Shown: in pieces, positions 20,548 through 42,761 of the stretch | Layout: each line of letters starts with the position of its first letter | Position numbering within the stretch: the first letter of the stretch is position 1 | Source: an uncultured Bacteroidales bacterium | GTDB lineage: Bacteria > Bacteroidota > Bacteroidia > Bacteroidales > P3 | Length of the DNA stretch: 64,000 bases | NCBI GenBank assembly: GCA_905234665.1 | Contig: CAJOIV010000022.1 | Location: forward strand, 1-64,000 | Direction: 5' to 3' | Notes under the pieces: generated by a model | Seen by the model: the letters and a program-made list of their open reading frames with translations, nothing else | What the model was told of the DNA's origin: nothing | The model's database searches: none | Made by a program: the position numbers and the translations under genes

Positions 20548-21978
20548 ATGAAAAAGTTATTCTTATCCATCCTGGCGTGCCTGCCCCTGCTGGCATCGGC
20601 ACAGACCTACGACACGATATACAACAGGGCAGAGAATTGTTACTATACAAGTTGGTACGACACCTGCGAATGCTTCCTGAAGGGCCAGAGATTCCAGTCT
20701 CTGAATGTGGTAACGGTTTCAGCCGACCCCAATTCATTCGCTGTCTATCCTGCCTTCACACCAACCCCGATGGAGGTGAAAGGGGTGATGCTGTTTGTTC
20801 TGAAGGATATCCCTCGGTCACGTTATTACTACGACTACCGGCTGCCGGAATATGCGCTACTGTACCAGTACGATGCCGTCAACGACAGCATGATATTCAT
20901 CGATTCGGCGCGCTGGGACACCGTCACCCCGAAAATCATGAAGTGGCCACAAGGGGCCGACACCGCCTTAAGGGGGTTTTACTACTGCTACGCCTACGAG
21001 GCATATTTCGACAAACCCATCATGGTAGACTCGACTTTCTATGTCGGTGGGACACAACACAGCAACACTGGATTCCACGAAAGCGGCCAATACCTTTACA
21101 AATATGTTGAATACGAGAGAATGATTACTCGGCCACCCTGCGGATGCGAAGGCGTTGACGGAATGGTGTGGGCCCCAGGTTACGGATGGGACACCAGCTC
21201 GTATACTCACTGGATACCCTACGACGGCTCCTTCGGAGGATTTCTTCCCATTGTGGACAAATACCGCCTTGACGTAGAGGCCAACAATCCCCACGACGGG
21301 ACTGTGGAAGGATCGGGGCTGTTCCCCAATCTCTCATACCAAACCATCACCGCCGTACCCCTCGGGAACAACAGGTTTCTGCATTGGGACGACGGCGACA
21401 CCACAAATCCCCGTACCGTCCAACTGACACAGGACACCTTGTTCACCGCCTATTTCTCGAGCAACGAACAGCACACCGTGCGTGCCATCGCCAACGACAA
21501 CTGGCGGGGCCGTGTGGATGGCGGCGGCATCTATTACCTCGGCGAGGTGGCGGAACTGTCCGCCACGCCCTACGAGCCTTACTTCTTCGCCCGTTGGGAT
21601 GACGGCGACACTGCCAACCCGCGCCAAATTGTGGTTGCGGGCGACACCGTCCTGACAGCCCTCTTCCTAGATGCCACCGACACCACCGGCATCACCCCCG
21701 TGGAGGCCGACGCCGCCTCCTTCTTCACCCTCACCCCCAACCCCACCACAGGCAAGGTGACGGTGACAGTGGGAATTCTCAATTGTCAATTGTCAATTCT
21801 CAATTCCCCCATGACCCTCACCCTCCGCGACGCCGCGGGCCACGAAGTCCTCCGCAAGGCGCTGCCAGCAGGCACCGACAGCGTTGACCTCGACCTCTCG
21901 CACCTCCCCGCCGGAGCCTACTTCGTCACCCTCGCCACCCCCGCCTCCTCCGCCACCCAACGGCTGGTGGTGAAATAA
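20548..21978 (+). CDS. T9SS type A cargo protein with two InlB-like repeats
   Basis: 476 residues. Signal peptide (1-19, ending LLASAQ); a domain with AYFDKPIMVDSTFYVG shared with the products of 23425 and 57824; two divergent InlB B-repeat units (FLHWDDGDTTNP and FARWDDGDTANP); and a C-terminal sorting domain (FFTLTPNPTTGKVTV ... LPAGAYFVTL ... ATQRLVVK). The sorting domain is interrupted by GILNCQLSILNSPM, coded by the heptanucleotide array at 21774-21805. The ATG at 20548 precedes the signal peptide; the longer frame from 20416 overlaps the preceding gene. Confidence 0.85.
   Translation: MKKLFLSILACLPLLASAQTYDTIYNRAENCYYTSWYDTCECFLKGQRFQSLNVVTVSADPNSFAVYPAFTPTPMEVKGVMLFVLKDIPRSRYYYDYRLPEYALLYQYDAVNDSMIFIDSARWDTVTPKIMKWPQGADTALRGFYYCYAYEAYFDKPIMVDSTFYVGGTQHSNTGFHESGQYLYKYVEYERMITRPPCGCEGVDGMVWAPGYGWDTSSYTHWIPYDGSFGGFLPIVDKYRLDVEANNPHDGTVEGSGLFPNLSYQTITAVPLGNNRFLHWDDGDTTNPRTVQLTQDTLFTAYFSSNEQHTVRAIANDNWRGRVDGGGIYYLGEVAELSATPYEPYFFARWDDGDTANPRQIVVAGDTVLTALFLDATDTTGITPVEADAASFFTLTPNPTTGKVTVTVGILNCQLSILNSPMTLTLRDAAGHEVLRKALPAGTDSVDLDLSHLPAGAYFVTLATPASSATQRLVVK
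21774..21805 (+). repeat. Heptanucleotide array AATT(CTCAATT)4, copy 1
   Basis: Four 7-nt units plus AATT, with two units reading GTCAATT, inside the sorting-domain coding region. Read on the coding strand as ILNxQxSILNS without a stop. Confidence 0.85.
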
Positions 21979-22002
21979 AAAGACCATGAAATGCCCAAAC
22001 AT

Positions 22003-22033
22003 TTGGACATTTCGGAAAAAGTTAGTACCTTTG
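22003..22033 (+). promoter_or_regulatory. Promoter for 22061
   Basis: TTG (22003-22005), 20 nt, TACCTTTG (22026-22033), 27 nt before the ATG. Confidence 0.8.
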
Positions 22034-22060
22034 CAAGATAAACAATAAAACCTCATTCCT

Positions 22061-23416
22061 ATGAAACACGTGAATAAAATACTGTTAATCACATTGGTAT
22101 CGATGATGATACAATGTGGGTCATCCATGGCACAACCGTCCTACAATAGTGCGCTGGCCAGAATAACCTCTACCCCTACTGCCGGAATTGTGAGAGCCTA
22201 TTCCCCCAATTTTACGGTTACATGTTATTATGACATTCTATCAACACCCAATTCTTATTGCTTAATCATGAATAATGTTGTGTCCTCGGCATCAAGCCAA
22301 ATCATACAATTAAAAAACATGGAGATAGTTACAGACATGAGAATATTTAACGGATACGTGTATTTTTGTGGAGCGGATAGAAATCACAACGCCTGTTACG
22401 GATTCGTTGACATCAATGATTTTCGATGGGCACCACCCATTCCTTCAACCACCAATGTAGAATATAGAGAATTGGGGGTGCCGGCCAATCGTTCCCGCCT
22501 AACCAAAATGCAGGTGTATTTTGACGGGGCAGAACGATTGGTCGCCATAGGGACAGAATACATTACCCCGGCAGGTTCTTCTTCCCTGATTCCCGCTACA
22601 ACCACTAATTCTTATACGATTCCCACGGACTATGAATATTTTTTAGTGGAGTGTACCAACCCCAGAAACCCAAGTCCTGTCATGAATTACCTGTTGGTGA
22701 ATTGGGACAACAACGATGAACGCCCGACAGATATGGTGCTGACCAATTCATATCACGAAAAAAACTATTCGCCGGTCTATATCCATAGATGTCAGAAGAA
22801 CGATGTTATAAACACCTTTGATAACAGATATAGATATGCCATACAAGCTTGTACATCAAATCCGGGGCCTGCATGTTGCGACATGGATCCTGATGTAATT
22901 GCCATCGCCAACCTGACTTGCGATCCCACTGTTTATTATAATGGAATAACCACTCATGTGGTTAAGTTGCAGAGCATGACGAACACAAGCCATCAGGAAT
23001 TCAAGACTTCCGACAAGACTGACTTGTACGACGTCATGCTTTCCCACTTTATATTCCTGCCAACATCAACTCTTGATGATTATGTATTCCTGAGAATGAA
23101 ACCTTATCTATCCGTACCGTACATGGCGATAGGAGTTGTGGAATACTCCAGAATATTAGAATACAGGTCGATTGACAAACTCGGGACTAACTTTTTTGTA
23201 GCAACGAATGGTGATTATGGTTTTGTGAAACATGCCCTTGCCGAGAGCACTCCGCCAAGCTGTTACAAGATTGATAAATGGCCGATACGGGTAAACGATC
23301 CAGTCACAATTATCCCGGACACGCCTGTCTACGACAAGGATATTATGCCAGTCAACAGGCGTCTACAATCAGAGCTAAACAACAACAGAACCATAAATAT
23401 AGATTGCATCCACTGA
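22061..23416 (+). CDS. Exported protein, paralogue of 59232-60710
   Basis: 451 residues with a signal peptide ending SSMAQ. It shares features with the product of 59232-60710: an early block like VRAYSPNFTVTCYYDILS, a YFCGADRN/FICGQYAP type motif near residue 110, a cluster of paired Cys near residue 265 (CTSNPGPACCDMD), and a similar length. No T9SS sorting domain is visible. The gene is noticeably more A+T-rich than its neighbours, as is its paralogue. It is followed within 9 nt by a T9SS cargo gene, and the paralogue has the same arrangement. Function unknown. Confidence 0.75.
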   Translation: MKHVNKILLITLVSMMIQCGSSMAQPSYNSALARITSTPTAGIVRAYSPNFTVTCYYDILSTPNSYCLIMNNVVSSASSQIIQLKNMEIVTDMRIFNGYVYFCGADRNHNACYGFVDINDFRWAPPIPSTTNVEYRELGVPANRSRLTKMQVYFDGAERLVAIGTEYITPAGSSSLIPATTTNSYTIPTDYEYFLVECTNPRNPSPVMNYLLVNWDNNDERPTDMVLTNSYHEKNYSPVYIHRCQKNDVINTFDNRYRYAIQACTSNPGPACCDMDPDVIAIANLTCDPTVYYNGITTHVVKLQSMTNTSHQEFKTSDKTDLYDVMLSHFIFLPTSTLDDYVFLRMKPYLSVPYMAIGVVEYSRILEYRSIDKLGTNFFVATNGDYGFVKHALAESTPPSCYKIDKWPIRVNDPVTIIPDTPVYDKDIMPVNRRLQSELNNNRTINIDCIH

Positions 23417-23424
23417 TTAAGGTT

Positions 23425-24709
23425 ATGAATATGAAAAGACAGCTGTTATTAATCCTGTCCTTAGTGCTGATAGCATCTGAGGGGATAGCGCAGGACACAA
23501 TCTTCCCATGGGACTGTCCGAGGTATCTTACGATAGGGCGTCCTCCGATAGAGGGACGGTGGGGCAACAATATGTTCGGGCATTCATCAAATGGGGCTTT
23601 ACCCGGTCCTCAAATTATCGGTCATTCATTTTATGCGCCAGGAGCTACTGTGTATGGCTTGGCGGTATCCATTGAACATACGGGCTGGGCTTGTTATACC
23701 GATAACGACCAAAGGCATCATGTAGCATATTTGGGCTCGCTGGCAAAAGCATCAAGAACAGACAGCCTTCAGGTATGGATGATGCTGATGGAGAAAAGTG
23801 GGGATACCATTCGGCGTTTGGATTCTGTCCATTGGCATTACCGCAGCCGCCCCGATATAGTGTGGGTATTGCCCAGGGGATACGACAGTATATACCCTTA
23901 TGCGTATGAGTTTTATTTCGACCATCCCATACAGATGTCAGATACCTTTTGGGCATGTATTCGCGCAGGGGAATACTCAAATGATGATTACTGCACGGGT
24001 CTATTCTCCTCCGATTTGAGCTGTTATGCCCTAATCTGGCCCTCTACCTCTATGGAGGGGGAGGGTACCAGTTATTATATCAATTGGGCCGGCGAGAATG
24101 GAGAAGGGGCCTTTTTTTTCTATCCCAATAGAATCTATTTTGCCTTTACCCCCATTCTCGCGCCTCCGGACACAGACCATGTGGGATGCAGGGCCCCGCG
24201 GCTTCGCTTCATGAGGGCATCGTCGGGAAGGCCCTATTTCGAATGGACTGCATACACCGACGAGGAGACATTGCAGTATGAGGTGCAATATGCCCAACTG
24301 GGGAGCAACGAGTGGCGGACAACATACCCGACCTCATCCCCATTCAGGAGATTATCGACAATTTCGACGCCACCAAATACTACACGGCACGCATCCGTAT
24401 GCAACACCGGCACGGCTGCCCAATACACGACACCGTCTATTGGAGCCCGTGGAGCGACACAGTCCTCTTCTACACTGGCTCGACGGCCCCCGACACCACG
24501 ACATCCATCACCCCCGTGGAGGGCAGCCCCGACGGCCTCTTCACCCTCAGCCCCAACCCCGCCAGTGGCAAGGTGACCGTGACACTGGGACACACTCCTC
24601 AGTCTTTGACACACTCCTCCGCCCTTGCGGGCACCTCCCCGCCGGAGCCTACTTCGTCACCCTCTCCACCCCCGCCTCCTCCGCCACCCAACGCCTCGTG
24701 GTGAAATAG
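23425..24709 (+). pseudogene. Frameshifted T9SS type A cargo gene
   Basis: The protein starts MNMKRQLLLILSLVLIASEG and keeps frame to about 24315 (YEVQYAQLGSNEWRTT). Homology with the product of 57824-59212 then continues in a second frame (IDNFDATKYYTARIRMQHRH, CPIHDTVYWSPW, LSPNPASGKVTV) to about 24590. The end of the sorting domain (HLPAGAYFVTLSTPASSATQ, RLVVK) is in a third frame up to the TAG at 24707-24709. So two frame changes are needed. The second one coincides with two left-end pieces of the palindromic interspersed element (24589-24600, 24608-24640). Either a decayed gene or, less likely, two sequencing errors. Confidence 0.8.
24589..24640 (+). repeat. Truncated copies of the palindromic element inside the pseudogene
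   Basis: GACACACTCCTC occurs at 24589-24600 and again at 24608, where it continues through CGCCCTTGCGGGCACCTCCCC to 24640 before joining the gene's own CGCCGGAGCC. The right half of the element is missing; the join falls at the CACCTCCCC shared by the element and the normal gene (compare 21903-21911). Confidence 0.75.
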
Positions 24710-24723
24710 GGTGGCAATTCGTG

Positions 24724-25302
24724 TTACTTCTCGTAGAAGTGCATCTCGGTGAGGTACTGCCAGACGGGTTCGGTGAGGAGGTAGCGCACGTCGTTTCCCT
24801 GCCGTATCTGCTCGCGGATGTAGGTGGAGGAGATGTCCATCATCGGCACGTCGACCATCGTCACGTGCGGGTGTGATGCCAGGCGGCAGTCGGTGCTTCC
24901 CGGCCTGGGGTAGACATAGAGTTGGTAGTGGTCGAGGATATACTCCCAGTTGCGCCAGCGGTCGAAGGTGGCCAGGTTGTCGGACCCCATGATGAGGCAG
25001 AACTCCTTGTCGCGGTACTGCTCGCCGAGGTGGGCGAGGGTCAGCACGGTGTAGGAGGGTTTGGGGAGGTGGAACTCGGCGTCGCAGGCCCGGAGGCGGT
25101 AGTTGTCGTGCACGGCGAGGCGCACCATCTCGAGGCGTTGCTGGTCGGCCAGGAGGGTGCGGCGTTCCTTCAGCGGGTTCTGTGGCGATACCACCAGCCA
25201 GACCTCCCGCAGGTCGCTATGCTGCAGCATGCTGTTGGCAATGATGAGATGCCCCACATGGATGGGGTTGAACGAGCCGAAGAAGAGGCCAATCTTGCGC
25301 AT
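24724..25302 (-). CDS. nadD: Nicotinate-nucleotide adenylyltransferase
   Basis: 192 residues. It makes nicotinate adenine dinucleotide from nicotinate mononucleotide and ATP in NAD synthesis. The nucleotidyltransferase signature is at the start (GLFFGSFNPIHVGHLIIA), the middle has LIMGSDNLATFDRWRNW, and the ISSTYIREQI motif is near the end. Normal length. It is the last gene of a minus-strand run with 25424 and 26043; palindromic element A lies in the gap upstream. Confidence 0.93.
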   Translation of the reverse strand: MRKIGLFFGSFNPIHVGHLIIANSMLQHSDLREVWLVVSPQNPLKERRTLLADQQRLEMVRLAVHDNYRLRACDAEFHLPKPSYTVLTLAHLGEQYRDKEFCLIMGSDNLATFDRWRNWEYILDHYQLYVYPRPGSTDCRLASHPHVTMVDVPMMDISSTYIREQIRQGNDVRYLLTEPVWQYLTEMHFYEK

Positions 25303-25323
25303 AAGTAATCGGTTATGGGTTTT

Positions 25324-25388
25324 GACACACTCCTCCGCCCCTTTGGGGCACCTCCCCTAACTTAGGGGAGGAGTGGTGGCGCGGTCAA
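25324..25388 (+). repeat. Palindromic interspersed element, copy A
   Basis: 65 bp. Left end TTGACACACTCCTCC (from 25322), an inner hairpin GCCCC-TTT-GGGGC, a second one CCTCCCCTAA-C-TTAGGGGAGG, then GAGTG and right end GCGCGGTCAA; the ends TTGAC/GTCAA are inverted. The right flank to 25423 is a degenerate AATAACCA-type simple repeat. It lies in the intergenic gap between nadD and 25424. Confidence 0.85.
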
Positions 25389-25423
25389 TAACCACTAAAC
25401 AATAACCAATAAACACTAATGGT

Positions 25424-26026
25424 TTAATAGTATTTGTAGCCGCTGATGATCTGGATGTGGCGCAGCTTGTTGCCCTTGAAGGTGTATATCTCGCCCACCT
25501 CGGAGGTGCCGGCGATGACTTTCAGGGCGTTGATGTCGGCGGTGTAGGACTTGGGGTAGCTCTTGAAGATGACCTTGAAGACCTCCTCCTTGCTCATGCC
25601 CACGTGGATGCCGTTGTCGAGCACCACCTCGCTGTCGGTGATTTTGGCGGCCACCATCTCGAGTTTGTTGGTCCAGATGCTGCGGTAGACGTTGATGTTG
25701 GTGCCGTCGAGGCGTTTGAGGGTGTTGACGGCCACGGTCATGGTGTCGAAGAAGGTCTTGTAGCCGTACTCGCGGTACCATTGCAGCTGGTTGTTGGTGA
25801 TGTAGTCCTCGACGGTCTTCCATTTGCCCAGGGGGTAGATGGGGTAGTCGGAGAGGCAGAAGACGGTCATGGTGTCGGCGTAGACTTTGACGTCTTTCAC
25901 CTGGTATTCGGGACGGGCGTAGGCGAGCATGCGGACGGCCTTGGCGCGGGAGCTCACCTGCGAGCGCTGTGCCCCGGCGCTGAAGGCCAGGACCAGGAGG
26001 GCGGTTGCTATGAGTGCTTTTTTCAT
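25424..26026 (-). CDS. Exported hypothetical protein
   Basis: 200 residues with a signal peptide (1-19, ending FSAGAQ). The central region has many Tyr and Trp (LQWYREYGYKTFFDTM), and the C-terminal 70 residues (VVLDNGIHVGMSKEEVFKVI ... YTFKGNKLRHIQI) resemble the small two-layer domain often seen in Bacteroidota periplasmic proteins with a GMSKxEV motif. The ATG at 26026 begins the signal peptide. It lies 16 nt after the Omp28-like gene. Function unknown. Confidence 0.75.
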   Translation of the reverse strand: MKKALIATALLVLAFSAGAQRSQVSSRAKAVRMLAYARPEYQVKDVKVYADTMTVFCLSDYPIYPLGKWKTVEDYITNNQLQWYREYGYKTFFDTMTVAVNTLKRLDGTNINVYRSIWTNKLEMVAAKITDSEVVLDNGIHVGMSKEEVFKVIFKSYPKSYTADINALKVIAGTSEVGEIYTFKGNKLRHIQIISGYKYY

Positions 26027-26042
26027 GGGGGAGGAAGTGATG

Positions 26043-27119: not shown

Positions 27120-27167
27120 GTGTTTGCGCGCTTTTTCGTTACGGAGGAAACGATAGTTTTCCGTCTG

Positions 27168-27175
27168 CAAATGTA
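27168..27175 (-). promoter_or_regulatory. Promoter -7 box for the Omp28-like gene
   Basis: Minus-strand TACATTTG 49 nt upstream of the ATG at 27119; the -33 element is not clear. Confidence 0.55.
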
Positions 27176-27280
27176 CACAAAATAATTGATATAACACGTA
27201 TGCGCGAAAATATTTTTCGTGCAGGGCTTCCGAGTGCCGGTTGTGAGGACGGGGAGGGGAGTGGGACGGGAGGGATGTGG

Positions 27281-27410
27281 AAAAGAAAAAAGGGACCCCG
27301 TCATGCAGCCGGAAGAATGAAAGGTCTATGTTTGGGGAAACAGAACCGGCCGCTGTCAAATAACCCTTGGGGATGAAAACCCCGATCGACGTGGGTCCCT
27401 TTTGTTTTTC
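27281..27410 (-). ncRNA. Probable structured small RNA, 6S-like shape
   Basis: A consensus promoter (27417-27447) drives minus-strand transcription into about 130 nt with no open frame. The RNA closes on itself: AAAAGGGACCC pairs with GGGTCCCTTTT (11 bp), extended by CGTC/GACG past one bulged A. Next is an open region with a small 5'-side hairpin (GGGG-TTTTCAT-CCCC), then an 8-bp inner stem (GCGGCCGG/CCGGCTGC, one G-U) and an apical loop of about 33 nt. It ends in a T-rich tail near 27281. Long hairpin plus central bubble is the shape of 6S RNA, but the identity is inference from shape only. The downstream Omp28-like gene has its own promoter box. Confidence 0.55.
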
Positions 27411-27416
27411 TGTTTG

Positions 27417-27689: not shown

Positions 27690-27822
27690 TCCCTCGCCGC
27701 GGGTTTCCCTCTTCGCTGTTTGTTCTTCGATTGTTCTTCGATTGTATTCCGTTTTCAAAACGAAGAAGAATCGAAGAAGAAACGAAGAACAAACAGCGAA
27801 GGCAAGGGCGCGGCGAAGGGGC
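27690..27822. repeat. Large imperfect palindrome in the gene-free region
   Basis: The left arm (27691-27755: CCCTCGCCGCGGG..., then CTTCGCTGTTTGTTCTTCG) and right arm (27760-27822: ...CGAAGAACAAACAGCGAAGG, then GCGCGGCGAAGGGG) pair over about 60 nt each with mismatches. The inner 19 bases CTTCGCTGTTTGTTCTTCG recur exactly inverted. The gene-free stretch 27448-27983 otherwise shows only the terminator-like hairpin and the promoter of 27984. Confidence 0.75.
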
Positions 27823-30396: not shown

Positions 30397-32532
30397 ATGC
30401 AATACTCTACCATCATCGCACAGCAACTCAACCTCGGCGCACGCCAGGTGGAGAAGACCATTGAGCTCCTCGAACAGGGCGCCACGGTGCCCTTCATCGC
30501 ACGCTACCGCAAGGAGGCCACCGGCAGCCTCGACGAGGTGCAGATTACCGCCATCCGCGACCTTCTGCTGCGCCTCAAGGAACTCGACAAGCGCCGCGAG
30601 GCCGTCCTCGCCTCCATCGCCGAGCAAGGCAAACTGACCCCCGAGTTGGAGTCCCAAATCGGCGCCGCCGCCACCATGACGGAGTTGGAGGACCTCTACC
30701 TTCCCTTCCGCCCCAAACGGCGCACCCGCGCCACCATGGCCGTAGAACGCGGACTGGAGCCTCTGGCCAACGAGCTGCTGAAGCAGTACCCATGCGATGT
30801 GGAGAGACTGGCAGCCCCTTATGTCAATGCCGACAAGGGGGTGAACAGCGTTGAGGAAGCCCTTGCCGGGGCGCGCGACATCATTGCCGAGCGCGTCAGC
30901 GAGAACGTCCAGGCGCGCAACCGCGTGCGCACCCTTTTCCGCCGCTCGGCACAGCTCACCTCCAAAGTGGTCAAGGGCAAGGAGGAGGACGGAGGCAAGT
31001 TCGAGTCGTGGTTCGATTGGAAGGAGTATGCCATGCGCGCCCCGTCGCACCGCATCCTTGCCCTCTTCCGCGGTGAGGAGGAGGGAGTGTTGCGCGTGCA
31101 TGTCCTCCCGCCCGATGACGAGCCCGCCTATGAGATGCTGGAACGCCAGTTTGTGCGGGGCTCGTCCGAGGCCTCGGAGCAGGTGCGCCTGGCCGTGCGC
31201 GACGGCTACAAACGCCTTCTGCAGCCCAGCATCGAGACCGAGTATTGGAATCTTCTGAAAGAGAAGGCCGACAAGGAGGCCATCCGCGTCTTCGCCGAGA
31301 ACCTGCGCCAGCTGCTGCTGGCCTCGCCCCTGGGCCAGAAACGCATCCTGGCCATCGACCCGGGATTCCGCACGGGCTGCAAGACCGTCTGCCTCGACGC
31401 CCAGGGACAGCTGCTGCACAACGAGACCATCTATCCCTTCACCTCGGTGCGCGAGGAGCGCGCCGCCATCGCCAAGCTCGAAGCCCTCGTCGAGGCTTTC
31501 CACATCGAGGCCATCGCCATCGGCAACGGCACCGCAGGCCGCGAGACCGAGGAGGTGGTCAAGCGCTGCCGCTTCAAGAACAAGCTCATCGCCGTGATGG
31601 TCAGCGAGAGCGGCGCCTCCGTCTACAGCGCCAGCGACGTGGCGCGGCGCGAGTTCCCCGACTACGACGTCACCGTGCGCGGCGCCGTGAGCATCGGCCG
31701 CCGCCTCATGGACCCCCTCAGCGAGCTGGTCAAGATAGACCCCAAGAGCATCGGCGTGGGACAGTACCAGCACGATGTCAACCAGACCCTCCTGCAGGAG
31801 AGCCTGCAGGACGTGGTGGTGAGCTGCGTCAACAGCGTGGGCGTGGAACTCAACACCGCCAGCCGCGAGCTGCTGAGCTATGTGAGCGGCATCGGCCCCG
31901 CCCTGGCCGACAAGATTGTGGACTACCGCAACCACGAGGGACCCTTCGAGAGCCGCCGTCAGCTCCTCAAGGTGGAACGCCTGGGCGAGAAGGCTTTCGA
32001 GCAGTGCGCAGGATTCCTGCGAGTGCGCGAGAGCGCGAATCCCCTCGACCGCAGCGCCGTCCACCCCGAGCGCTACGCCCTCGTGGAACGCATGGCCGGA
32101 GATACCGGCGCCACCGTCGAACAGCTGATGGCCGACAAGGCCCTGCGCGAGAAAATCGACATCCGCCAGTATGTCACGGCCGACTGCGGCCTGCCCACCC
32201 TGCAGGACATCATGAAGGAACTCGACAAGCCCGGCCTCGACCCCAGGGCCAAGTTTGAAGTCTTCGAGTTCGACAAGAACGTCACGCGCATCGAGGACCT
32301 CAGAGAGGGCATGGTGCTCCCCGGCATCGTGACCAATATCACGGCCTTCGGCGCCTTCGTCGACGTGGGGGTGCACCAGGACGGCCTGGTGCATGTCAGC
32401 CAGATGGCCAACCGCCGCGTCAACGACCCCTCCGAAATAGTACACCTCCACCAGCATGTGCAGGTGAAGGTGTTGGAAGTCGACCTCCGGAGGAGGCGGA
32501 TAAGCCTTAGCATGAAGGGGTTGAATGCGTAG
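30397..32532 (+). CDS. tex: Tex family RNA-binding transcription accessory protein
   Basis: 711 residues. It starts with the Tex N-terminal helices (LNLGARQVEKTIELLEQGAT, VPFIARYRKEATGSLDEVQI). Next come the YqgF-like domain (ILAIDPGFRTGCKT, IAIGNGTAGRETEEVVK), a helix-hairpin-helix region (LLSYVSGIGPALADKIVDYR) and a C-terminal S1 domain from about residue 640 (GMVLPGIVTNITAFGAFVDV ... GLVHVSQMANR). Length is near the family's usual 720-780. Tex binds RNA and is thought to act in transcription. The ATG at 30397 lies 11 nt past the preceding terminator. Confidence 0.93.
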   Translation: MQYSTIIAQQLNLGARQVEKTIELLEQGATVPFIARYRKEATGSLDEVQITAIRDLLLRLKELDKRREAVLASIAEQGKLTPELESQIGAAATMTELEDLYLPFRPKRRTRATMAVERGLEPLANELLKQYPCDVERLAAPYVNADKGVNSVEEALAGARDIIAERVSENVQARNRVRTLFRRSAQLTSKVVKGKEEDGGKFESWFDWKEYAMRAPSHRILALFRGEEEGVLRVHVLPPDDEPAYEMLERQFVRGSSEASEQVRLAVRDGYKRLLQPSIETEYWNLLKEKADKEAIRVFAENLRQLLLASPLGQKRILAIDPGFRTGCKTVCLDAQGQLLHNETIYPFTSVREERAAIAKLEALVEAFHIEAIAIGNGTAGRETEEVVKRCRFKNKLIAVMVSESGASVYSASDVARREFPDYDVTVRGAVSIGRRLMDPLSELVKIDPKSIGVGQYQHDVNQTLLQESLQDVVVSCVNSVGVELNTASRELLSYVSGIGPALADKIVDYRNHEGPFESRRQLLKVERLGEKAFEQCAGFLRVRESANPLDRSAVHPERYALVERMAGDTGATVEQLMADKALREKIDIRQYVTADCGLPTLQDIMKELDKPGLDPRAKFEVFEFDKNVTRIEDLREGMVLPGIVTNITAFGAFVDVGVHQDGLVHVSQMANRRVNDPSEIVHLHQHVQVKVLEVDLRRRRISLSMKGLNA

Positions 32533-32575
32533 GTGTGAATGTGTAGGTGTGAATGTGTAATACACATTCATACAT

Positions 32576-34384
32576 TCACCGTAGCACCACACGTTCCGTG
32601 GCGGTGCCGCCAGCGGTCTCGGCGGTCAGCAGGTATATGCCTCGCGGCCAGCGGCGGATGTCTATTTCGTGGCGGGTGCCGAGGGGCTGCGTGAGGCTGT
32701 AGACCTCCTGCCCGAGGGCGTTCACAACGCGCAGGGCGGTCATCGCCTCTGTCGACTCGACGGTCAGCATGTCGCTGGCGGGGTTGGGGAAAATTGAGAA
32801 TTGAGAATTGAGAATTGAGAATTGGCGGATGCCCACGGTGTCGGGGAGGGTGGCGAAGGCCAGAATGCGCGGGACGCTTTGGCGACTGCTGTCGCAGACC
32901 GTGGCGACGGAGAGGATGTAGGCCGTCCCCGGCATGAGGGTGTCGACGCTGAAGAGGGTATCGCGCGTGTCGATGGTGGCGAGCGTCTCGTCGCCGCTCA
33001 TCAGGACCACGTGGAACAGAGCGGCGCTGTCGCTGCTGTCGACGGCTGGGAAGCTCCAATGGATGGTGGCAAAAGAGAGTCCGAGCGTGTCGATGACAAG
33101 GCTGTCGACGGCGGGACATTCGATGACGGGGAGGGTGTCGGTGGTGAAGGTGACGGGCGAGGACCATTCAGTATAGACCGTGTCGCGGCAGATGGCGCGG
33201 ACGTAGGCCTGGTAGGTGGTGCCGTAGTCGAGGCCCTCGAGGGTGGCAGCCGTCTGAAGTGTGGAGAGGGTTGTGCCAGTGCCGAGGGTGAAGCCCTCCA
33301 TGCCGTATTCCACTTCGTAGGCGGAGTTGTTGGTGCCGGCGGTCCAGCTGAGGGCTGCGGTGTTGACAAAGACCTGTGCGGCGAGGCCGGAGACGGTGTC
33401 GCACGGGGGCTCGGGTCCTACGAGGGTGACGGTGTAGTCGCGTGTGGTGACGGTGTCCTCAGCCACGACGTGGAGGACAAACCGGCGGGTATGGCTGTCG
33501 AGCCAAAGGGTGTCGACCGTGACGGTAGCGTCGGCGGCTTGGGTGGAGAATTGGATGGTCGAGGAGCAGAGGAGGTCGTAGGTGGGAAGGGTGTCAGCAT
33601 AGTCGAGGATGCCGCGCTGGAAGGTGGGGATAGAGTCCCAATTGATGGAGATATTGTCGAGCCAGGCGCTGTAGATGAACTCGATGTCGTCGATGGAGAG
33701 GGAGTCGTTGGCAGCACCGCCCCCGGGGGTGGTGTTGGTGCTTATGGACATAAGGATGTAGTTGACAGAAGAGAATCCGTCGTAGACAAAGGGGACTTTC
33801 TTCTGCACCCATTGGCGCGACGAGGCGTTGGAGGTGGTGCGGGTGAAGGTAGAGATGGCCTTGCCGCAGTATTTGGAGGCGTCGCTCTCGTGGTTGGGCG
33901 AGCGGAAGTCGTTGTCTCCGTGGATATAGGCCTTGACCATACCCGTCGAACTGCTGCTGGCGGCGTAGAAGGAGACCCACACATACATCGAGTCGGGCGT
34001 GCCGCTGAAGGCGTGGCAGTAGTTGCTGCCGCGGTGGGTGTAGTTGTAGTTGTCGCTGCTGCTGGCGGAGGTGGAGCCGGCGTGTATCTGGCCGGTAGTC
34101 ATGTTGCCGTTGGCCTTGGTGTTGAGGACGCTGCGGGTGTAGATGGTGACGAAGGAGGAGCCAGAGGTGCCGGGGCGGCCGCCGTGGCGGTGATAGTGCT
34201 GGGCGGTGGAGGCGAAGGAGGCCCAGGTGCCGTCGGCCTGGGGGAAGGAGCTCCAGTTGGAGGGTTTGGCGGTAAGGGAAGTGCCTTCCCAAGACTCGAA
34301 ACCAGGGTTATAGAGCTGGTACTGTGCTTGTGCGATGCCGCCGCAGAGGAGGGCGGCACATAGAAGGATAAAGTGTTTCTTCAT
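32576..34384 (-). CDS. PCMD-like secreted protein with fibronectin type III domains, T9SS type A
   Basis: 602 residues. Signal peptide (1-20, ending AQA); an N-terminal domain beginning YNPGFESWEG with SNYCHAFSGTPDSMYVWVSF and NDSLSIDDIEFIYSAW, matching the putative carbohydrate metabolism domain; two fibronectin type III domains at about 325-415 and 420-515; then a sorting domain (FPNPASDMLTVES ... WPRGIYLLTAE ... ATERVVLR). The linker before the sorting domain reads RQFSILNSQFSI and is coded by a heptanucleotide array. It lies downstream of porX, separated by palindromic element B. Confidence 0.82.
   Translation of the reverse strand: MKKHFILLCAALLCGGIAQAQYQLYNPGFESWEGTSLTAKPSNWSSFPQADGTWASFASTAQHYHRHGGRPGTSGSSFVTIYTRSVLNTKANGNMTTGQIHAGSTSASSSDNYNYTHRGSNYCHAFSGTPDSMYVWVSFYAASSSSTGMVKAYIHGDNDFRSPNHESDASKYCGKAISTFTRTTSNASSRQWVQKKVPFVYDGFSSVNYILMSISTNTTPGGGAANDSLSIDDIEFIYSAWLDNISINWDSIPTFQRGILDYADTLPTYDLLCSSTIQFSTQAADATVTVDTLWLDSHTRRFVLHVVAEDTVTTRDYTVTLVGPEPPCDTVSGLAAQVFVNTAALSWTAGTNNSAYEVEYGMEGFTLGTGTTLSTLQTAATLEGLDYGTTYQAYVRAICRDTVYTEWSSPVTFTTDTLPVIECPAVDSLVIDTLGLSFATIHWSFPAVDSSDSAALFHVVLMSGDETLATIDTRDTLFSVDTLMPGTAYILSVATVCDSSRQSVPRILAFATLPDTVGIRQFSILNSQFSIFPNPASDMLTVESTEAMTALRVVNALGQEVYSLTQPLGTRHEIDIRRWPRGIYLLTAETAGGTATERVVLR
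32792..32824 (-). repeat. Heptanucleotide array AATT(CTCAATT)4, copy 2
   Basis: On the coding (minus) strand four CTCAATT units and a flanking AATT, read QFSILNSQFSI. It lies directly before the sorting domain. Confidence 0.9.
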
Positions 34385-34426
34385 AGAGGTATTGATTTGT
34401 TGATATGTTAATACGTTGATGGGTTG

Positions 34427-36043: not shown

Positions 36044-36047
36044 ATTG

Positions 36048-36122
36048 GTGAATGTGAGAATGTGAGAATGTGTGAATGTGTGAGTGTGTGAATGTGTGAA
36101 TGTGTGAGTGTGTGAGTGAGTG
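36048..36122. repeat. Octamer simple-repeat tract upstream of porX
   Basis: About eight imperfect copies of GTGTGAAT fill the whole gap between the porX start and the stop of the dacB-like gene. A shorter tract of the same sequence is at 32532-32562. Confidence 0.85.
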
Positions 36123-37055: not shown

Positions 37056-37558
37056 GTGGGGTGGACGATCTCGTCGTCGTAGAGGGAGCCGTCGGTGTAG
37101 ATGTGGCCGTCGATGCGGCGGATGCCTTCGTTGCGGAGGTTCTCGGCGATTTGGAGGAAGAGGGTGTCGGGTGCGGTGCTCTTGAAACGTGCCGACCCGA
37201 GGAAGGGGTCGCCCTGTCCGATGATGTAGAGGTTGCCGTGGAGGACCCCCCGGTTGTCGATGGTGCCGCTGTAGACCATCTGGGTCTTGAAACGGAAGTC
37301 CTTGCCGAGGCGGCTGAATCCCGCCGCGGTGGTGAAGAGTTTGTTGAGGGCGGCGGGCAGGAGTGCGTGGTCGGCGTCGAGGGCGTAGAGGACGGTGTCG
37401 TCGGTGACATTGTAGACGCAGATGCTCAGAGAGGCGTGCGACATGAGGGGCTGGAGGCGTGCCCGACGCACGGAATAGTCAAGAAAATCGGTGTTCTGGC
37501 CCCATGTGGAGAGAGAGGCCAGGGTGAAAAGTACGGCGAGAAAGGATCGGATTCGCAT
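37040..37558 (-). pseudogene. dacB: N-terminal part of PBP4-type carboxypeptidase, truncated
   Basis: 172 residues: signal peptide (1-20, ending TWGQ), then LMSHASLSICVYNVTDDTVL and LLPAALNKLFTTAAGFSRLG. The second block is the SxxK region of PBP4, here with A-L-N-K where the family usually has SxxK, so the catalytic Ser itself appears replaced. It ends IVHPTWQWP and a TGA at 37040, where the DUF975-like sequence begins in another frame. Full PBP4 proteins are about 450-480 residues. It starts 3 nt after the engB stop. Probably non-functional as shown. Confidence 0.75.
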
Positions 37559-37561
37559 GTT

Positions 37562-38170
37562 CTAATGTTCAGTTTTCAGGTTCTCGTTGATGGTATCGAT
37601 AAAGTCCAGCACATGGTCGCGGCCGTAGCCAGTGGCGGACGATGTGAGGAACATCATGGGAGGTTCCTCCCAGGTCTTGGAGAGGATGGATTTGTAGTTG
37701 TTGACGATGGCGGCGATTTCGCGTTGCTTCTGTTTGTCGGTCTTGGTGAAGATGATGCTGAGCGGGATGCCGTTGGCACCGAGGAAGTTGATAAATTCGA
37801 GGTCGATGGCTTGCGGGGGGATGCGCGAGTCGACCAGCACGAAGACGTTGGTGAGCTGCTCGCGGTGGAGCATGTAGTTGGAAATCATCTTCTGCCAGGT
37901 TCCGCGGTTGGATTTGGAAGTGCGGGCGTAGCCGTAGCCGGGGAGGTCGACAAGGTGCCATTCATCATTGATGAGGAAATGGTTGATGAGTTGTGTCTTG
38001 CCGGGTTGGGAACTGGTCTTGGCAAGGCCTTTGACCCCCGTCAGCATGTTGATGAGTGAAGACTTGCCCACGTTGCTGCGTCCGATGAAGGCATACTCGG
38101 GGAGGCTCGAGTCGGGGCATTTGCGGTAGTCGCTGTTGCTGATGACAAAAGTGGCTTTCCTTATCTTCAT
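37562..38170 (-). CDS. engB: Ribosome biogenesis GTPase EngB/YsxC
   Basis: 202 residues. G1 [13 protein letters not shown]2 region [13 protein letters not shown]3 DLPGYGYA, G4 FTKTDKQ and G5-like TSSATGYG are all in order. It takes part in assembly of the large ribosomal subunit. The start overlaps the glsB stop by ATGA (38167-38170). Confidence 0.93.
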
Positions 38171-39282
38171 TCTTCTTCGGGCTTGTCGGTTTTGGATTTG
38201 TGTTTAGGAGTGAATCTCTTGTTGCGGCGCTTCATGTCGCGGAGGCTGTTCAGCTCGGCCATCTCATCCTCGTTGACGGTTTTCCACCAAGGGAGTCTCT
38301 TGGGGTTGATGCGGAAGAGGTTGATGCGGTCGAAGAGACGGTTGCGCTTCTCGTAGGTCCCGAAATAGCGGGAGTGCTTTTCGGGGTGTATGTCGCGTAC
38401 CTTGACGAGGATGCCGAGTTCGTAGGTGTTGCCGAAGTCGGCGTCGAAGATGGTGCCGAAGTAGCGCATGGAGGTGGAGAGGTTCATGTAGGCCGAGATG
38501 AGGGCGGGGACGTGGTGTCCCATCTCGCGCACGTTGCGTTGGAGGATTTGGAAGTCCTCCTTGTAGTTGCGGCCGGTGAAGAGGGTGTCGAGCCTGTTGA
38601 GGTCGGTCTGGATGGGAACAGGGTCGTGGGGCCACACCAGGCCATCGCGGTCGGGGAAGTGTTTGCGATAGAAGTAGCATATCATGTCGCGAGCCTCGAC
38701 GGGAAGGGTGGTGTAGGTGGTAATCTTGCCGAAGTAGTAGTGAGTCTCAGGAATTTCCACGGCGATGGCCGCGAGGCCGTCCCAGAGATTGTCGAGAGAG
38801 TACATCCCCTTGCGCAGGTTGTTGCTGGGTTGGTAGGCGGGCTGCACGAAGGCGCGACCCAGCTCAAGGGTGAAGGGCAGGATATTGTGGGTGAACATTT
38901 CGGAGTAGTCGTAGAACTCGGCCGAGGGGGTGTCGTAGCGGCCATCCACTGTGATGCGCATGTTGGAACCGTGGATGAAACGGTAGCCGCCGACAATCTC
39001 CTCCTCTTCGGGGTCCCAGACGAGGAGCTGTTTGAAGCAGTAGGGCTCGGGGAGGGTGTCGAAACGGTCGATGTCGACCTCCTTGCCGGTGCCGCCGCCT
39101 TCGAGGACATAGCTCAGTTCGCGCAGGCGCCCTATTTCGCGCATGACGTTGGGCGACTGGCGGGCGGTGGTGACGTATATCTCCTTGTTGCCAAAGTTGG
39201 TCTTGCGGAGGAAGTTCTTGCGTTTCAGCTCTTCTTTGATGAGGCCGCGGTTGACTGGCGGGATGATGTATGATGTGTCCAT
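38167..39282 (-). CDS. glsB: GNAT-type N-acyltransferase for glycine lipid synthesis (GlsB-like)
   Basis: 371 residues. The central part has the long-chain N-acyltransferase pattern ([60 protein letters not shown]), as in OlsB-type enzymes. In Bacteroides thetaiotaomicron the adjacent glsB and glsA genes make glycine lipids: GlsB N-acylates glycine with a 3-hydroxy fatty acid and GlsA adds the second acyl chain. The same pairing here (glsA upstream at 39354-40235) supports the call. The C-terminal tail is Lys-rich. The ATG at 39282 starts the conserved [15 protein letters not shown]; the longer frame is low complexity. Confidence 0.8.
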
Positions 39283-39353
39283 GTTGGATGGCGTTTGTAG
39301 TCGATAGAGTGGATAGATTTGATAGATGCGATAGGGTGGATAGAGAAGGGTTC
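39283..39353. repeat. GATAGA-type simple repeat between glsA and glsB
   Basis: The 71-bp gap is largely a degenerate repeat of GATAGA/GATAG units (GTCGATAGAGTGGATAGA, TTGATAGATGCGATAG, GTGGATAGAG). Confidence 0.6.
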
Positions 39354-40235
39354 TTAGCACGTAGTGCTTAAAAAGGTTTCGTCGGGGTTGTCCTTGAGCC
39401 GGTAGATGTAGTCCTTGACCAACTGGGTCCACTCCTTGGGGGTGTGGCGGTCGTCGAAGGTGGAGTAGGGGATGGGTTTGCCGATGATGAGCCGCAGGCG
39501 CTTTCCGCGCTGGCGGAACATCTCGTCGGGCAGGAGCGCCATCTCGAAGTTGAACTTGATGCCCAACCGTTCACGGAGACGGGCCAGATTGTAAAACCGG
39601 CGGCTGTTCTGTGCGTCGAAGAAGAAAGGCACCACGTCGCGGTGGTATTTGATGGCCTTCTTGATGAAGGTGGGTTTCCATTCCAGATCGCGTATGACGC
39701 CGCCTTTCTGTTTGCGCGAGCAGAGACCTGCAGGGAAGTAGAGGAGCATGTTCTGGGCGGCGAAGGCGGCCTCGATGCCCTGGGCGTTGGACGAGTTGCG
39801 GTGCACCTTGTCGATGGGTACAAAGAGGGGCTTCAGCTGTGGGATGTAGAGCAGGAAGTCGTTCACCGGGAAGAGAATGTCCTGGCGGTAGTGGCCAATG
39901 GCGCCCATGAGGGCCAGTCCGTCGGGGCCGCCGAGGGGGTGGTTGCCCGCCACGATGGGGAAGCCATCGGTGGGGATGTTGCCCTCGTTCACCACCTCGA
40001 TGTTGATGTTGAGGTCGTACTTGCCGTTCCCCTCCAAAAAGGCGTGAACGAAGTCCATTCCCATCTTGTCGCGATGGTTGTAAATGGTGCCGTTAATCTC
40101 GTCGATGTGCAAAATGCGCTCCATGAAATGCAGGACGAACTTGGGCAGCTTGACGTTCTTTTTGGCGAGAATACGTTCGAGGTCAACGTAGTTCTCGGTG
40201 ATATTGAGGGCTGTATTATTGTTGGTTTCTTTCAT
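39354..40235 (-). CDS. glsA: O-acyltransferase for glycine lipid synthesis (GlsA-like, PlsC family)
   Basis: 293 residues. The acyltransferase His/Asp motif is in AGNHPLGGPDGLALMG, followed by LKPLFVPIDKVHRN and a block around YFPAGLCSRKQKGGVIRDLE that fits motif III. C-terminal LRLIIGKPIPYSTFD corresponds to motif IV. First gene of a run glsA-glsB-engB-dacB-porX on the minus strand; -7 box at 40258-40265. The glycine-lipid role is taken from the paired glsB homologue. Confidence 0.8.
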   Translation of the reverse strand: MKETNNNTALNITENYVDLERILAKKNVKLPKFVLHFMERILHIDEINGTIYNHRDKMGMDFVHAFLEGNGKYDLNINIEVVNEGNIPTDGFPIVAGNHPLGGPDGLALMGAIGHYRQDILFPVNDFLLYIPQLKPLFVPIDKVHRNSSNAQGIEAAFAAQNMLLYFPAGLCSRKQKGGVIRDLEWKPTFIKKAIKYHRDVVPFFFDAQNSRRFYNLARLRERLGIKFNFEMALLPDEMFRQRGKRLRLIIGKPIPYSTFDDRHTPKEWTQLVKDYIYRLKDNPDETFLSTTC

Positions 40236-40257
40236 GTCCGCTATAGGTTAGAACGTG

Positions 40258-40265
40258 CAAAGATA
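40258..40265 (-). promoter_or_regulatory. Promoter -7 box for glsA
   Basis: Minus-strand TATCTTTG 23 nt upstream of the ATG at 40235. Confidence 0.65.
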
Positions 40266-40534
40266 CGAATAATTATTGAGATAAACGCATTCCGAGGGAA
40301 AATATTTTCTTCCTTTGCAGGAAAAAATCCTCCACCTGTCTCTCTCCTGCCCCAAAGGGGTGCTTCCCTTGCCGGAATTTGTCTCCTCGGGAGATGCTGA
40401 AATCGTGTTCTCCGGTCCCCGAAAAAGGCCTTTTTGCAGATGCAGAATGCCTTCGGACGATGATTGGGGGAATAAATATCAGATTGGGAAATAGTGAGTT
40501 GCGGCGTTGAAGAAAAAAAAAGAGGCGGGAAGCA
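40266..40534. other. Gene-free stretch before rpmG
   Basis: Apart from the two flanking promoters I see no credible gene, tRNA or strong hairpin here. Confidence 0.5.
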
Positions 40535-40564
40535 TTGTTATATCAAAAAAAAGTAGTACTTTTG
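40535..40564 (+). promoter_or_regulatory. Promoter of rpmG
   Basis: TTG (40535-40537), 19 nt, TACTTTTG (40557-40564), a full consensus match; leader of about 90 nt to the ATG. Confidence 0.85.
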
Positions 40565-40659
40565 CACCCGCTTTTGAGAGCCGGAATGTGGATTGTCGAT
40601 GCTCCTTCCGCACCCCGCACAAAGGCACAACAGGTAAACGAAAAAACAGAATAAACGAT

Positions 40660-40848
40660 ATGGCAAAGAAGAACAAAGACGCACGCGTGCAGGTTATCCT
40701 CGAATGCACCGAGCAGAAGAACAGCGGTGTTCCCGGCATGAGCCGTTACGTCACCACCAAGAACAAAAAGAACACCCCCGAGCGCCTCGAGCTCAAGAAG
40801 TACAACCCGTACTTGAAGAAAATGACCGTCCACAAAGAAATCAAATAA
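40660..40848 (+). CDS. rpmG: Ribosomal protein bL33
   Basis: 62 residues beginning [20 protein letters not shown], with [20 protein letters not shown] as expected for bL33. It lacks the four zinc-binding Cys. The ATG at 40660 is the family start; the frame is open upstream into the leader. rpmB (L28), often next to it in this phylum, is not present here. Confidence 0.95.
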
Positions 40849-40869
40849 CAGAATAGGAGACCTTGAACT

Positions 40870-41025
40870 ATGGCAAAGAAAGTTGTTGCAACCCTGAAAA
40901 CCTCCACGGGCAAGAGCTATGCAAAAGTGATTCGGATGGTTCGCTCTCCGAAGACCAACGCCTACACCTTTGAGGAGACCATCGTCGCCTCCGACAGCGT
41001 GCAGGAGTTCCTGAAGAAGAAATAA
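40870..41025 (+). CDS. DUF4295 small ribosome-associated-type protein
   Basis: 51 residues: MAKKVVATLKTSTGKSYAKV, then VRSPKTNAYTFEETIV and EFLKKK. DUF4295 proteins of this size directly follow rpmG across the Bacteroidota, as here (21-nt gap). Small and basic, probably ribosome-associated; function not established. Followed by a strong terminator. Confidence 0.9.
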   Translation: MAKKVVATLKTSTGKSYAKVIRMVRSPKTNAYTFEETIVASDSVQEFLKKK

Positions 41026-41070
41026 TCATCCCACAGGAAGAAATACTTTTTTTCATACGCTTTTGTTTTG

Positions 41071-41098
41071 CCTCCGTCGAAAGACGGAGGTTTTTTTC
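41071..41098 (+). terminator. Terminator of the rpmG-DUF4295 unit
   Basis: CCTCCGTC-GAAA-GACGGAGG followed by seven T. Its end touches the stop codon of the convergent gene at 41098-41736. Confidence 0.93.
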
Positions 41099-41736
41099 TA
41101 TTCCTTGTTGACCTTGCGCTTGAACCATTCGACGAATTCGGGGAGGTCGTCGAGGGGACGGAAGCCGGCCTTGAAGGGCTCCTTGGGCATGGGACAGATG
41201 TCGACATAGCCGATGAGAGTGGTGCAGTCGAACTCGCCGAGGAGGGCCTCCAGGGTGACGTAGACTCCCACGAGGAGGTCGTCGCCTTCGGGGTCGTCGG
41301 TCTTGGGAACGTAGCCCGCCGGCAGGTCGGGGAGGGCGACGCGGAGGCCGATGATGTCGGGTTCCTCGTCGCTTTCGAGCTGGAGGAAGGCCATCTTGGC
41401 AGTCTCGAAACGGTAGCGGTCGAAGACCACGCGCAGGTTTTTGCCTTTGGGCTGGCGGAAGGCGATGAACTCCCACCAGTCGATGTCGGGGGCGTTGTCG
41501 ACGAGCTCGACGACATAACGGAAGAGGTCGAAGTCGCCTTCGGCACTGATGGTGAGGGTGCGCCCGTTGGCGGTCTGCTCGCCTACCTCGCAGGTGAGGC
41601 CGTCGCAGTAGGCGGTGAGCTGTTGCTGCATCTCGTCGAGGAGGCTCTTGCGGGAGGCTTCGTCGAGGTCGTTGAGCATGGTGAGAGATTCACTGTGGGC
41701 CGTGAACCAGGACCAGAAAATATCGGGGGTATTCAT
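41098..41736 (-). CDS. Conserved hypothetical protein
   Basis: 212 residues starting MNTPDIFWSWFTAHSESLTM. Helical N-terminus, then alpha/beta segments with DWWEFIAFRQPKGKNLRVVF and LVGVYVTLEALLGEFD; no signal peptide or membrane span. The layout recalls conserved cytoplasmic Bacteroidota proteins of unknown role. It lies 11 nt after murB and probably shares its transcript. The ATG at 41736 was preferred over an Arg/Pro-rich extension. Confidence 0.75.
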   Translation of the reverse strand: MNTPDIFWSWFTAHSESLTMLNDLDEASRKSLLDEMQQQLTAYCDGLTCEVGEQTANGRTLTISAEGDFDLFRYVVELVDNAPDIDWWEFIAFRQPKGKNLRVVFDRYRFETAKMAFLQLESDEEPDIIGLRVALPDLPAGYVPKTDDPEGDDLLVGVYVTLEALLGEFDCTTLIGYVDICPMPKEPFKAGFRPLDDLPEFVEWFKRKVNKE

Positions 41737-41747
41737 AGATGGAAGAA

Positions 41748-42761
41748 TTAGATGATGATTGCTTCGGGGGTGAGGGTGACGCCGTATTTGGCGCGGACGT
41801 CGGCGATGATGGCGTCGGAGAGGGCGACGACTTCGTCGCCGCTGCAGCCGCCGCGGTTGACGAGGACGAGGGCCTGCTTCTCGTAGACGCCGGCACGGCC
41901 GAGACTGCGGCCTTTCCATCCGGCATGCTCGATGAGCCATCCGGCGGCCAGCTTATAGCCGTCGGCGACGGGGAAGGCGACGATGTCGGGGTGCTGGGCG
42001 CGGAGGGTCTCGTACTGTTCAGTGGTGACGACAGGGTTCTTGAAGAAGCTGCCGGCGCTTCCGGTCTCTTCGGGACGGGGCAGTTTGCTCCAGCGGAGGG
42101 CGGCGATGGTGTCGGCCAGCTGGACGGGAGTGGGGGAGGGCAGCCCCGCCGCCGTGAGGGCTTCGGCGATGGCGCGGTAGCCGAGGTTGGGGGCGAAGGT
42201 GCGGGAGAGGCGGAAGACGACGGAGGTCACAATAAACTGTCCTGCGGCCTCGTGCTTGAAGATGCTGTCGCGGTAGCCGAAGTGGCACTCGGCGTTGCTA
42301 AAGGTGTGCTCATGGCCTGTGGCGAGCTCGACGGTGTGGACCTCATGGATGATGTCCTTGGCCTCGATGCCGTAGGCTCCGACATTCTGCACGGGGGCGG
42401 CACCCACGGTGCCGGGGATGGCCACGAGGTTCTCGGCGCCATGCCAGCCCTGCGCGATGCAGTGACGGACGAAGTCGTCCCACACTTCGCCGGCGGCGGC
42501 CTCGACCAGCAGGTCGTCGCCGTGTTCTTTGACAAGACGGATGCCGCGGTTGGCCATGTGGAGGACAGTGCCGGGGAAGTGACGCGTGAAGACCATGTTG
42601 CTGCCTGCGCCGACTATTAGTAATTGAGAATTGAGAATTGAGAATTGAGAATTAAGGATGTCGTGAAGTTCATCGACATCGTGTATCTCGATGTAGCGGT
42701 CGGCGGTGGCTGGGAGGCCGAAGGTGTTGGGTACCCGGTGTCCGGGCTGACATTCTTTCAT
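41748..42761 (-). CDS. murB: UDP-N-acetylenolpyruvoylglucosamine reductase with repeat-coded insert
   Basis: 337 residues. It reduces UDP-GlcNAc-enolpyruvate to UDP-MurNAc in peptidoglycan synthesis. FAD-binding motif VGAGSNMVF; IPGTVGAAPVQNVGAYGIE; FGYRDSIFK; and the catalytic-serine segment GSAGSFFKNP. Residues 35-46 (ILNSQFSILNSQ) are an insert just before the VGAGSN strand, coded by the heptanucleotide array at 42621-42653. The start MKECQPGHR at 42761 is preferred over 42815, whose extra residues come from a spacer repeat. Palindromic element C lies upstream. Confidence 0.92.
   Translation of the reverse strand: MKECQPGHRVPNTFGLPATADRYIEIHDVDELHDILNSQFSILNSQLLIVGAGSNMVFTRHFPGTVLHMANRGIRLVKEHGDDLLVEAAAGEVWDDFVRHCIAQGWHGAENLVAIPGTVGAAPVQNVGAYGIEAKDIIHEVHTVELATGHEHTFSNAECHFGYRDSIFKHEAAGQFIVTSVVFRLSRTFAPNLGYRAIAEALTAAGLPSPTPVQLADTIAALRWSKLPRPEETGSAGSFFKNPVVTTEQYETLRAQHPDIVAFPVADGYKLAAGWLIEHAGWKGRSLGRAGVYEKQALVLVNRGGCSGDEVVALSDAIIADVRAKYGVTLTPEAIII
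42621..42653 (-). repeat. Heptanucleotide array AATT(CTCAATT)4, copy 3, in murB
   Basis: Coding-strand sequence AATT plus four CTCAATT units, read LNSQFSILNSQ. Same number of units as the copies at 21774 and 32792. Confidence 0.92.

Follow-up and report, generated by a model that had tools for sequence, protein, structure and literature searches.

The question raised by the 64,000-nucleotide stretch analysed here (the window; contig CAJOIV010000022.1, positions 1 to 64,000) is why three of its protein-coding genes, among them murB, carry the same short heptanucleotide array in frame. Our preferred answer, which we consider probable, is that the arrays belong to a dispersed family of heptanucleotide simple sequence repeats, AATTNTC, in which N is usually C, T or G and whose spread is best explained by replication slippage together with template switching or copying between loci, followed by selection. 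The arrays and their host genes, two of them encoding cargo of the type IX secretion system (T9SS), are as follows.

20548..21978, plus strand: T9SS cargo gene with the first array (Pfam domains Flg_new_2 and Por_Secre_tail)
21774..21805, plus strand: first heptamer array, AATT words separated by the spacers CTC, GTC, GTC and CTC
32576..34384, minus strand: T9SS cargo gene with the second array (Pfam domains fn3 and Por_Secre_tail)
32792..32823, minus strand: second heptamer array, four CTC spacers, directly ahead of the Por_Secre_tail domain
41748..42761, minus strand: murB with the third array (Pfam domains FAD_binding_4 and MurB_C)
42622..42653, minus strand: third heptamer array, four CTC spacers, corresponding to residues 55-65 (NSQFSILNSQL) of the MurB protein P0001

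Each array is a 32-bp AATT(NTCAATT)4 tract in frame on the coding strand of a real gene (3/3). The sequence-only reading had described all three as AATT(CTCAATT)4. The second and third are indeed pure (CTCAATT)4, but the mixed spacers of the first give the peptide ILNCQLSILNS. The exact word AATTCTCAATTCTCAATT gave no match in 100 shuffles. Domain searches supported the assignments to MurB and to T9SS cargo, the latter through the sorting domain Por_Secre_tail; the second cargo protein, which had been called PCMD-like, contains fn3 and Por_Secre_tail instead, with no PCMD domain at E <= 0.001. The first cargo gene has an open frame from 20416, and the start at 20548 (MKKLFLSILA...) was judged the likelier one. 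The murB open frame begins with a GTG at 42815, while the related proteins P0004 and P0005 start at the residue encoded at 42761.

The host, a bacterium of gut or rumen, is represented by a Bacteroidales metagenome-assembled genome (MAG), G000, of 2.67 Mb in 65 contigs (90.5% complete, 5.6% contamination). With MurB as the guide, the nearest named records proved to be Bacteroidales MAGs; ruminants or horses were the source of many, and 'bacterium P3' is one of them. Across this genome AATTBTCAATT matched 411 times compared with 2 for the reversed word, and AATTSTCAATTSTCAATT gave 99 overlapping matches, corresponding to 57 arrays, compared with none for its reversal. Tandem 7-nt units are thus found at many genomic sites, as in a dispersed heptanucleotide repeat. 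A 363-kb set enriched for array loci contained 23 exact tandem runs of period 7, 13 of period 14 and 0 to 4 of each other period between 4 and 15, and 21 of the 23 period-7 runs were AATTCTC, AATTTTC or AATTGTC; Markov sequence simulated from 20 of 43 pieces contained none. Eight 20-kb stretches chosen independently of arrays contained four period-7 and six period-11 runs, so that enrichment is not confined to period 7. Period-11 tracts, TTGTTCTTCGA and AAACGAAGAAG, also occur in the window at 27720-27794, and samples of the relatives G124, G137 and G004 gave 8, 12 and 5 period-11 runs per 100 kb, respectively. An assembly artefact was rejected, because contigs assembled independently (P0004, P0005 and P0244) carry these MurB and UbiE arrays too. 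No earlier description of these repeats in Bacteroidales was found in the open-licence PMC literature.

The sequence-only reading held that the arrays comprise exactly four units and took this constancy as evidence for a mobile or selected unit. Four units were confirmed for the three copies in the window but not genome-wide. When every listed AATTBTCAATT place in contigs C1-C8 was read as a complete set, with one mismatch tolerated per added unit, the 39 arrays had one (5 arrays), two (5), three (9), four (17), five (2) or six (1) units. A smaller, earlier sample omitted most loci having two S-type units side by side, and copy number was therefore taken from C1-C8. A set of 68 arrays, chosen for two adjacent S-type units, had two (5), three (10), four (45), five (5) or six (3). 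By exact counting of arrays with at least three units, the selected G000 set gave 24 arrays of three, 27 of four and 3 of six; the relative G100 gave 27 of three, 12 of four and one of seven, and G130 gave 36 of three, 6 of four, 2 of five and one of eight. The mode is therefore four in G000 and three in G100 and G130, and since counts vary in all of these sets, the unit number is modal rather than fixed. Variable copy number, from 1 to 6 units in C1-C8 and up to 7 or 8 in relatives, is what is seen in simple sequence repeats. Frame selection as the sole cause of the four-unit mode was rejected, as four units were found in 24 of 31 interior coding arrays compared with 21 of the 37 remaining arrays (Fisher p 0.12).

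The sense strand of the array is open in all frames, each of which encodes the cyclic peptide NSQFSIL, while translation of the antisense strand (one run used 9 units) gave a TGA in every frame at three or more units. The earlier stop-codon argument therefore stands for arrays of at least three units but not for two, which leave one antisense frame open. Among the 68 arrays, 31 lay within the top-scoring sense-strand open reading frame (ORF), in all three frames, and none within the top-scoring opposite-strand ORF; three two-unit arrays were spanned by a second-ranked antisense ORF. Tabulation of the arrays bore out the coding-strand bias, though not the constant copy number. The bias needs no function because the opposite strand carries TGA in all frames at three or more units. 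The inference of function from it was rejected on this ground. In 16 of the 68 the stop of the opposite-strand gene falls inside the array. In the smaller sample of 32 segments, with most S-type arrays left out and gene coverage of about 76% by a rough caller, 18 lay at an opposite-strand gene end, 10 were intergenic, 4 were in a gene in sense and none in antisense. This placement is compatible with random arrival and subsequent purifying selection.

The in-gene sites include sorting-domain turns, MurB, UbiE/MenG, SpoU methylase and PrmC, which upheld the suggestion that housekeeping genes, MurB included, carry in-frame arrays. Two further array-bearing genes are presumably IspE-like and YggS-like, to judge from their Pfam families. 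The gene with GHMP_kinases_N and GHMP_kinases_C at L055 (G000:C46:688 and 807) holds two separate heptamer arrays, and we take it to be the IspE-like one. Eight in-gene arrays resemble signal-peptide cores, as judged by eye only (C2:55362, C4:59069, C8:48165, C14:39974, C17:1490, C20:10625, C30:41011 and C45:6004).

The MurB array had been described as inserted. Simple insertion was rejected, since the loops of relatives are nearly equal in length: among 29 loops read at 30 loci, the array loop exceeded the loops of other genus members by one residue in most cases and by more in some. The tract therefore substitutes for a variable loop of about equal length, with a net gain of about one residue. 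The alignment with the solved MurB structure 4jay has one gap at this loop, and in an AlphaFold2 model (mean predicted local distance difference test score 84.9) residues 55-65 extend from where helix 47-56 ends, through a short helix (58-62), to where strand 65-68 begins. Peptides at the same position were compared for the closest MurB proteins, which were read among 120 listed, as peptide sequences only. P0004 and P0005 (97% identity) have NSQFSILNSQL, identical to the array peptide of P0001. P0006 (89%) has NSKLKTQNSKL and P0010 (86%) NSKPKTQNSKL, the type of peptide predicted, at the protein level only, as the product of an (AAAACTC)n tract. P0007 has NNCQPDTGQFSILNSQL, which is a hairpin reading plus a heptamer, and in P0008, P0009 and P0011 the peptides are of the SGLDPE or GELVEP kind, presumably repeat-like. 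MurB proteins of 84-97% identity thus differ in the repeat-like peptide that occupies one loop. The alignment accordingly spoke against an ordinary conserved loop, but it revealed no added module or target duplication. No evidence of function was found for the MurB copy, and none is required.

Similar differences were observed in other loops. In SpoU methylase, P0128 has NSKLKTQNSKL and P0129 has NSQFSTIVSRTPANSQF; in UbiE, P0250 has NSQFSINVSRTPANFQL, and the segment is absent from P0247 and P0254. For UbiE DNA, 30 loci were taken from the 59 of 120 genomes that gave a match, and 28 loops were read. Six carried clear period-7 arrays, of five different heptamers, two were weak and 20 had none.

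G000: clear array, AATTCTC
G110: clear array, AACTRTC
G107: clear array, AAAATTC/ATAATTC
G123 and G104: clear arrays, GGARAGT
G124: clear array, AAAGGTK
G137: weak array, GGARAGT-like
G004: weak array, AATTTTC/AACTTTC

The UbiE loop has 41 residues in G000 and G107, 39 in G110 and G004 and 31-34 in most others, including G123 and G104, and the UbiE of some relatives is 7-9 residues shorter. Because loop lengths differ among array-bearing genomes, the arrays at this site are deduced both to lengthen and to replace.

The heptamer in the UbiE loop was then compared with the heptamers of the genome around it. Three motifs were searched, and the five genomes whose UbiE motif was among them were testable. 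Whole-genome matches to AATTSTC, GGARAGT and AAAGGTK, in this order, were:

G000: 99, 0 and 0
G123: 5, 86 and 0
G137: 7, 23 and 0
G104: 0, 7 and 0
G124: 16, 12 and 46

In all five the loop motif was the most frequent of the three. In G107, tracts of the same family as its loop occur elsewhere in the genome (L275). Across the genus AATTSTC was present in 61 of 120 genomes, and other genomes contain several differing period-7 motifs. The reversed-word control is a clean null in G000 only, because in other genomes the reversed words match real-looking families. No period-7 array was found in samples of G143 and G119 (80 kb each) or G104 (40 kb).

These data are consistent with a process in which tracts would originate and multiply by replication slippage, combined with template switching or with copying from one dispersed tract to another. 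Short stretches of homology such as AATT may guide the copying, so that a few units would overwrite a short target stretch, and selection would then retain stop-free orientations and frame-compatible copies. Tolerated sites would include signal-peptide cores, where the array peptide may act as the hydrophobic core, as well as loops, sorting-domain turns and gene ends. An account by purely local slippage, with each array expanded at its own site from a seed that arose by chance and the likeness due to shared mutational bias, draws on the existence of one- and two-unit tracts (10 of the 39 in C1-C8), on the several different period-7 motifs of other genomes, and on the UbiE loop of G094, where a seed-like AACTTTCAATTA stands at the place at which G110 is 21 nt longer. 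It is disfavoured because one motif occurs at scores of loci; independent seeds would not give a single family accounting for 21 of the 23 runs in the array-enriched G000 set. The match of loop motif to the genome's top motif in 5 of 5 testable cases also speaks against it, and we regard it as quite unlikely. Functional DNA or RNA sites at gene ends, serving in protein binding, in the processing of 3' ends or in the control of translation, with the coding copies as by-products, could account for the 16 of 68 arrays that contain an opposite-strand stop, and heptamers have been proposed as regulatory in Beggiatoaceae (PMC4679880). Purifying selection would, however, also leave random arrivals at gene ends, AATTSTC has no match in 59 of the 120 genus genomes and the motif varies between species at one site, the UbiE loop, which makes this explanation very unlikely.

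A mobile element, namely a heptamer cassette of ~28-32 bp, with or without the repetitive extragenic palindromic (REP)-like hairpin GTCAGCCGGACACCGGCC, moved for instance by a REP-associated Y1 transposase, is also considered unlikely. It would be suggested by the sharp size mode of the arrays, by the two Y1_Tnp genes of G000 and by the hairpin, of which nine copies are listed in G000 with a search pattern that misses copies whose 21st base downstream is G. All nine are joined to heptamer-like units (seven exact AATTNTC, two degenerate), and five of the nine have a unit on the left as well. With nine listed copies, however, most arrays are without the hairpin. Neither constant ends nor target duplication was seen, MurB shows net replacement rather than addition, and the same UbiE loop holds different heptamers. 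Across the 120 genus genomes the Y1_Tnp count did not correlate with the AATTSTC count (rho 0.02, p 0.84), and a transposase link was rejected on this basis, AATTSTC being the only motif tried; two of six transposase neighbourhoods (L287 and L288) were scanned. The analysis identified no mobile element to which defined ends or an enzyme could be assigned. The earlier choice of a mobile or selected unit over slippage was therefore right in that a family is dispersed over scores of loci, but not in implying such an element.

Several observations weigh against slippage with inter-locus copying as we propose it. The template switching is inferred, and not drawn from near-identical pairs of array-bearing and array-free DNA. 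The four-unit mode is not explained by frame selection, as the comparison of interior coding arrays above indicates. The motif counts are overlapping matches to patterns of 16 or 18 bases, the five tested genomes are not independent in descent, and three of the seven GGARAGT matches in G104 are its own UbiE array. G102 has 32 GGARAGT matches and yet an array-free UbiE loop, while no further copy of the UbiE-loop motifs of G110 and G004 was found in 100-kb samples. Lastly, the heptamer-like units follow directly after the hairpin in 9 of 9 listed copies and in a single orientation, which is suggestive of a mobile composite. The two would either move together, or heptamer tracts would be where the hairpin lands.

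A variant of the same hairpin is found at the start of murB.

42734..42751, minus strand: REP-like hairpin variant GTCAGCCCGGACACCGGG, read as CQPGH within the N-terminal extension MKECQPGHR

Through this variant, positions 42734-42761 of the window encode an extra N terminus of MurB. More distant MurB relatives (e.g., P0010-P0013) lack this hairpin-derived N terminus and start at MIPNTFG. A separate palindromic element, read in frame as SSPKLGEV...GGVC, was noted in several G000 ORFs (L032 in C14, L035 in C16, L005 in C3 and L031 in C13), including ones named by eye as O-antigen-ligase-like and glycosyltransferase-like, and its end GGAGGAGTGTGTC often adjoins heptamer arrays.

A more speculative proposal, which we hold to be doubtful, is that a 'writer' exists in each genome of the lineage and copies the heptamer word current there into many dispersed sites, coding loops included, at around four units (about three helical turns). 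A change of word would lead to the overwriting of old tracts and hence to concerted evolution. Candidates for the 'writer' would be a template-switching repair pathway and an RNA-templated polymerase, and its activity would be readable in the permissive loops of proteins.

Other repeats were noted in the window. Immediately 3' of the second array-bearing gene, TGAATGTGTAGGTG is present in 2.7 copies (32522-32559), and a period-8 tract, GTGAATGT, extends over 8.5 copies at 36048-36115. The ORF at 11737-14133 contains several 69-bp repeat arrays and is possibly, by our assumption, a leucine-rich BspA-like surface protein.

Rickettsia palindromic elements are in-frame repeat DNA inside coding genes and are longer palindromes. 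The heptamer arrays resemble them in standing in frame within protein-coding genes but differ in being tandem heptamers of 28-32 bp with no palindrome. Addition of a full-length segment to the host gene, as with those elements, was not seen in MurB (about +1 residue), although lengthening does occur in UbiE. In comparison with REP sequences and their transposases, the heptamer unit itself is no palindrome, and a hairpin adjoins some arrays.

The closest published relative of the AATTNTC family, as described in PMC4692102, is the G-rich heptamer GGGAATC or GGGGA(C/T)T of Xanthomonas and Nostoc, which is dispersed, prefers four units and was tied by its authors to G-quadruplexes. Both are genome-wide heptanucleotide units, heterogeneous at fixed positions and often near gene ends. 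The preference for four units is shared by G000 (17 of 39 arrays in C1-C8, 45 of 68 in the selected set), with a mode of three in G100 and G130. Unlike that heptamer, AATTNTC has no G-run on either strand and hence lacks the feature needed for a quadruplex; another cause of the four-unit preference should therefore be sought, and the quadruplex explanation published for other heptamers is weakened. TAACTGA heptamers, according to PMC4679880, occur in Beggiatoaceae, some Cyanobacteria and five Bacteroidetes; they are one word across phyla and mostly precede start codons, whereas the arrays here comprise many words that differ between sister species and are found in coding loops too. The same paper cites Mrazek et al. 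2007 for long simple sequence repeats in which heptanucleotides were the most abundant and slippage was proposed. The favoured unit length of 7 is shared with those repeats, but the arrays here are short, have one dominant motif and replace protein loops. As far as these two papers indicate (PMC4692102, PMC4679880), known bacterial heptamers are mostly noncoding or upstream of genes, while those described here stand in the loops of core enzymes. What is new, and what we consider real and unusual, is a family of heptamer repeats that settles in protein loops and overwrites them, providing a natural experiment on the spread and homogenisation of short repeats and on the protein segments that tolerate rewriting.

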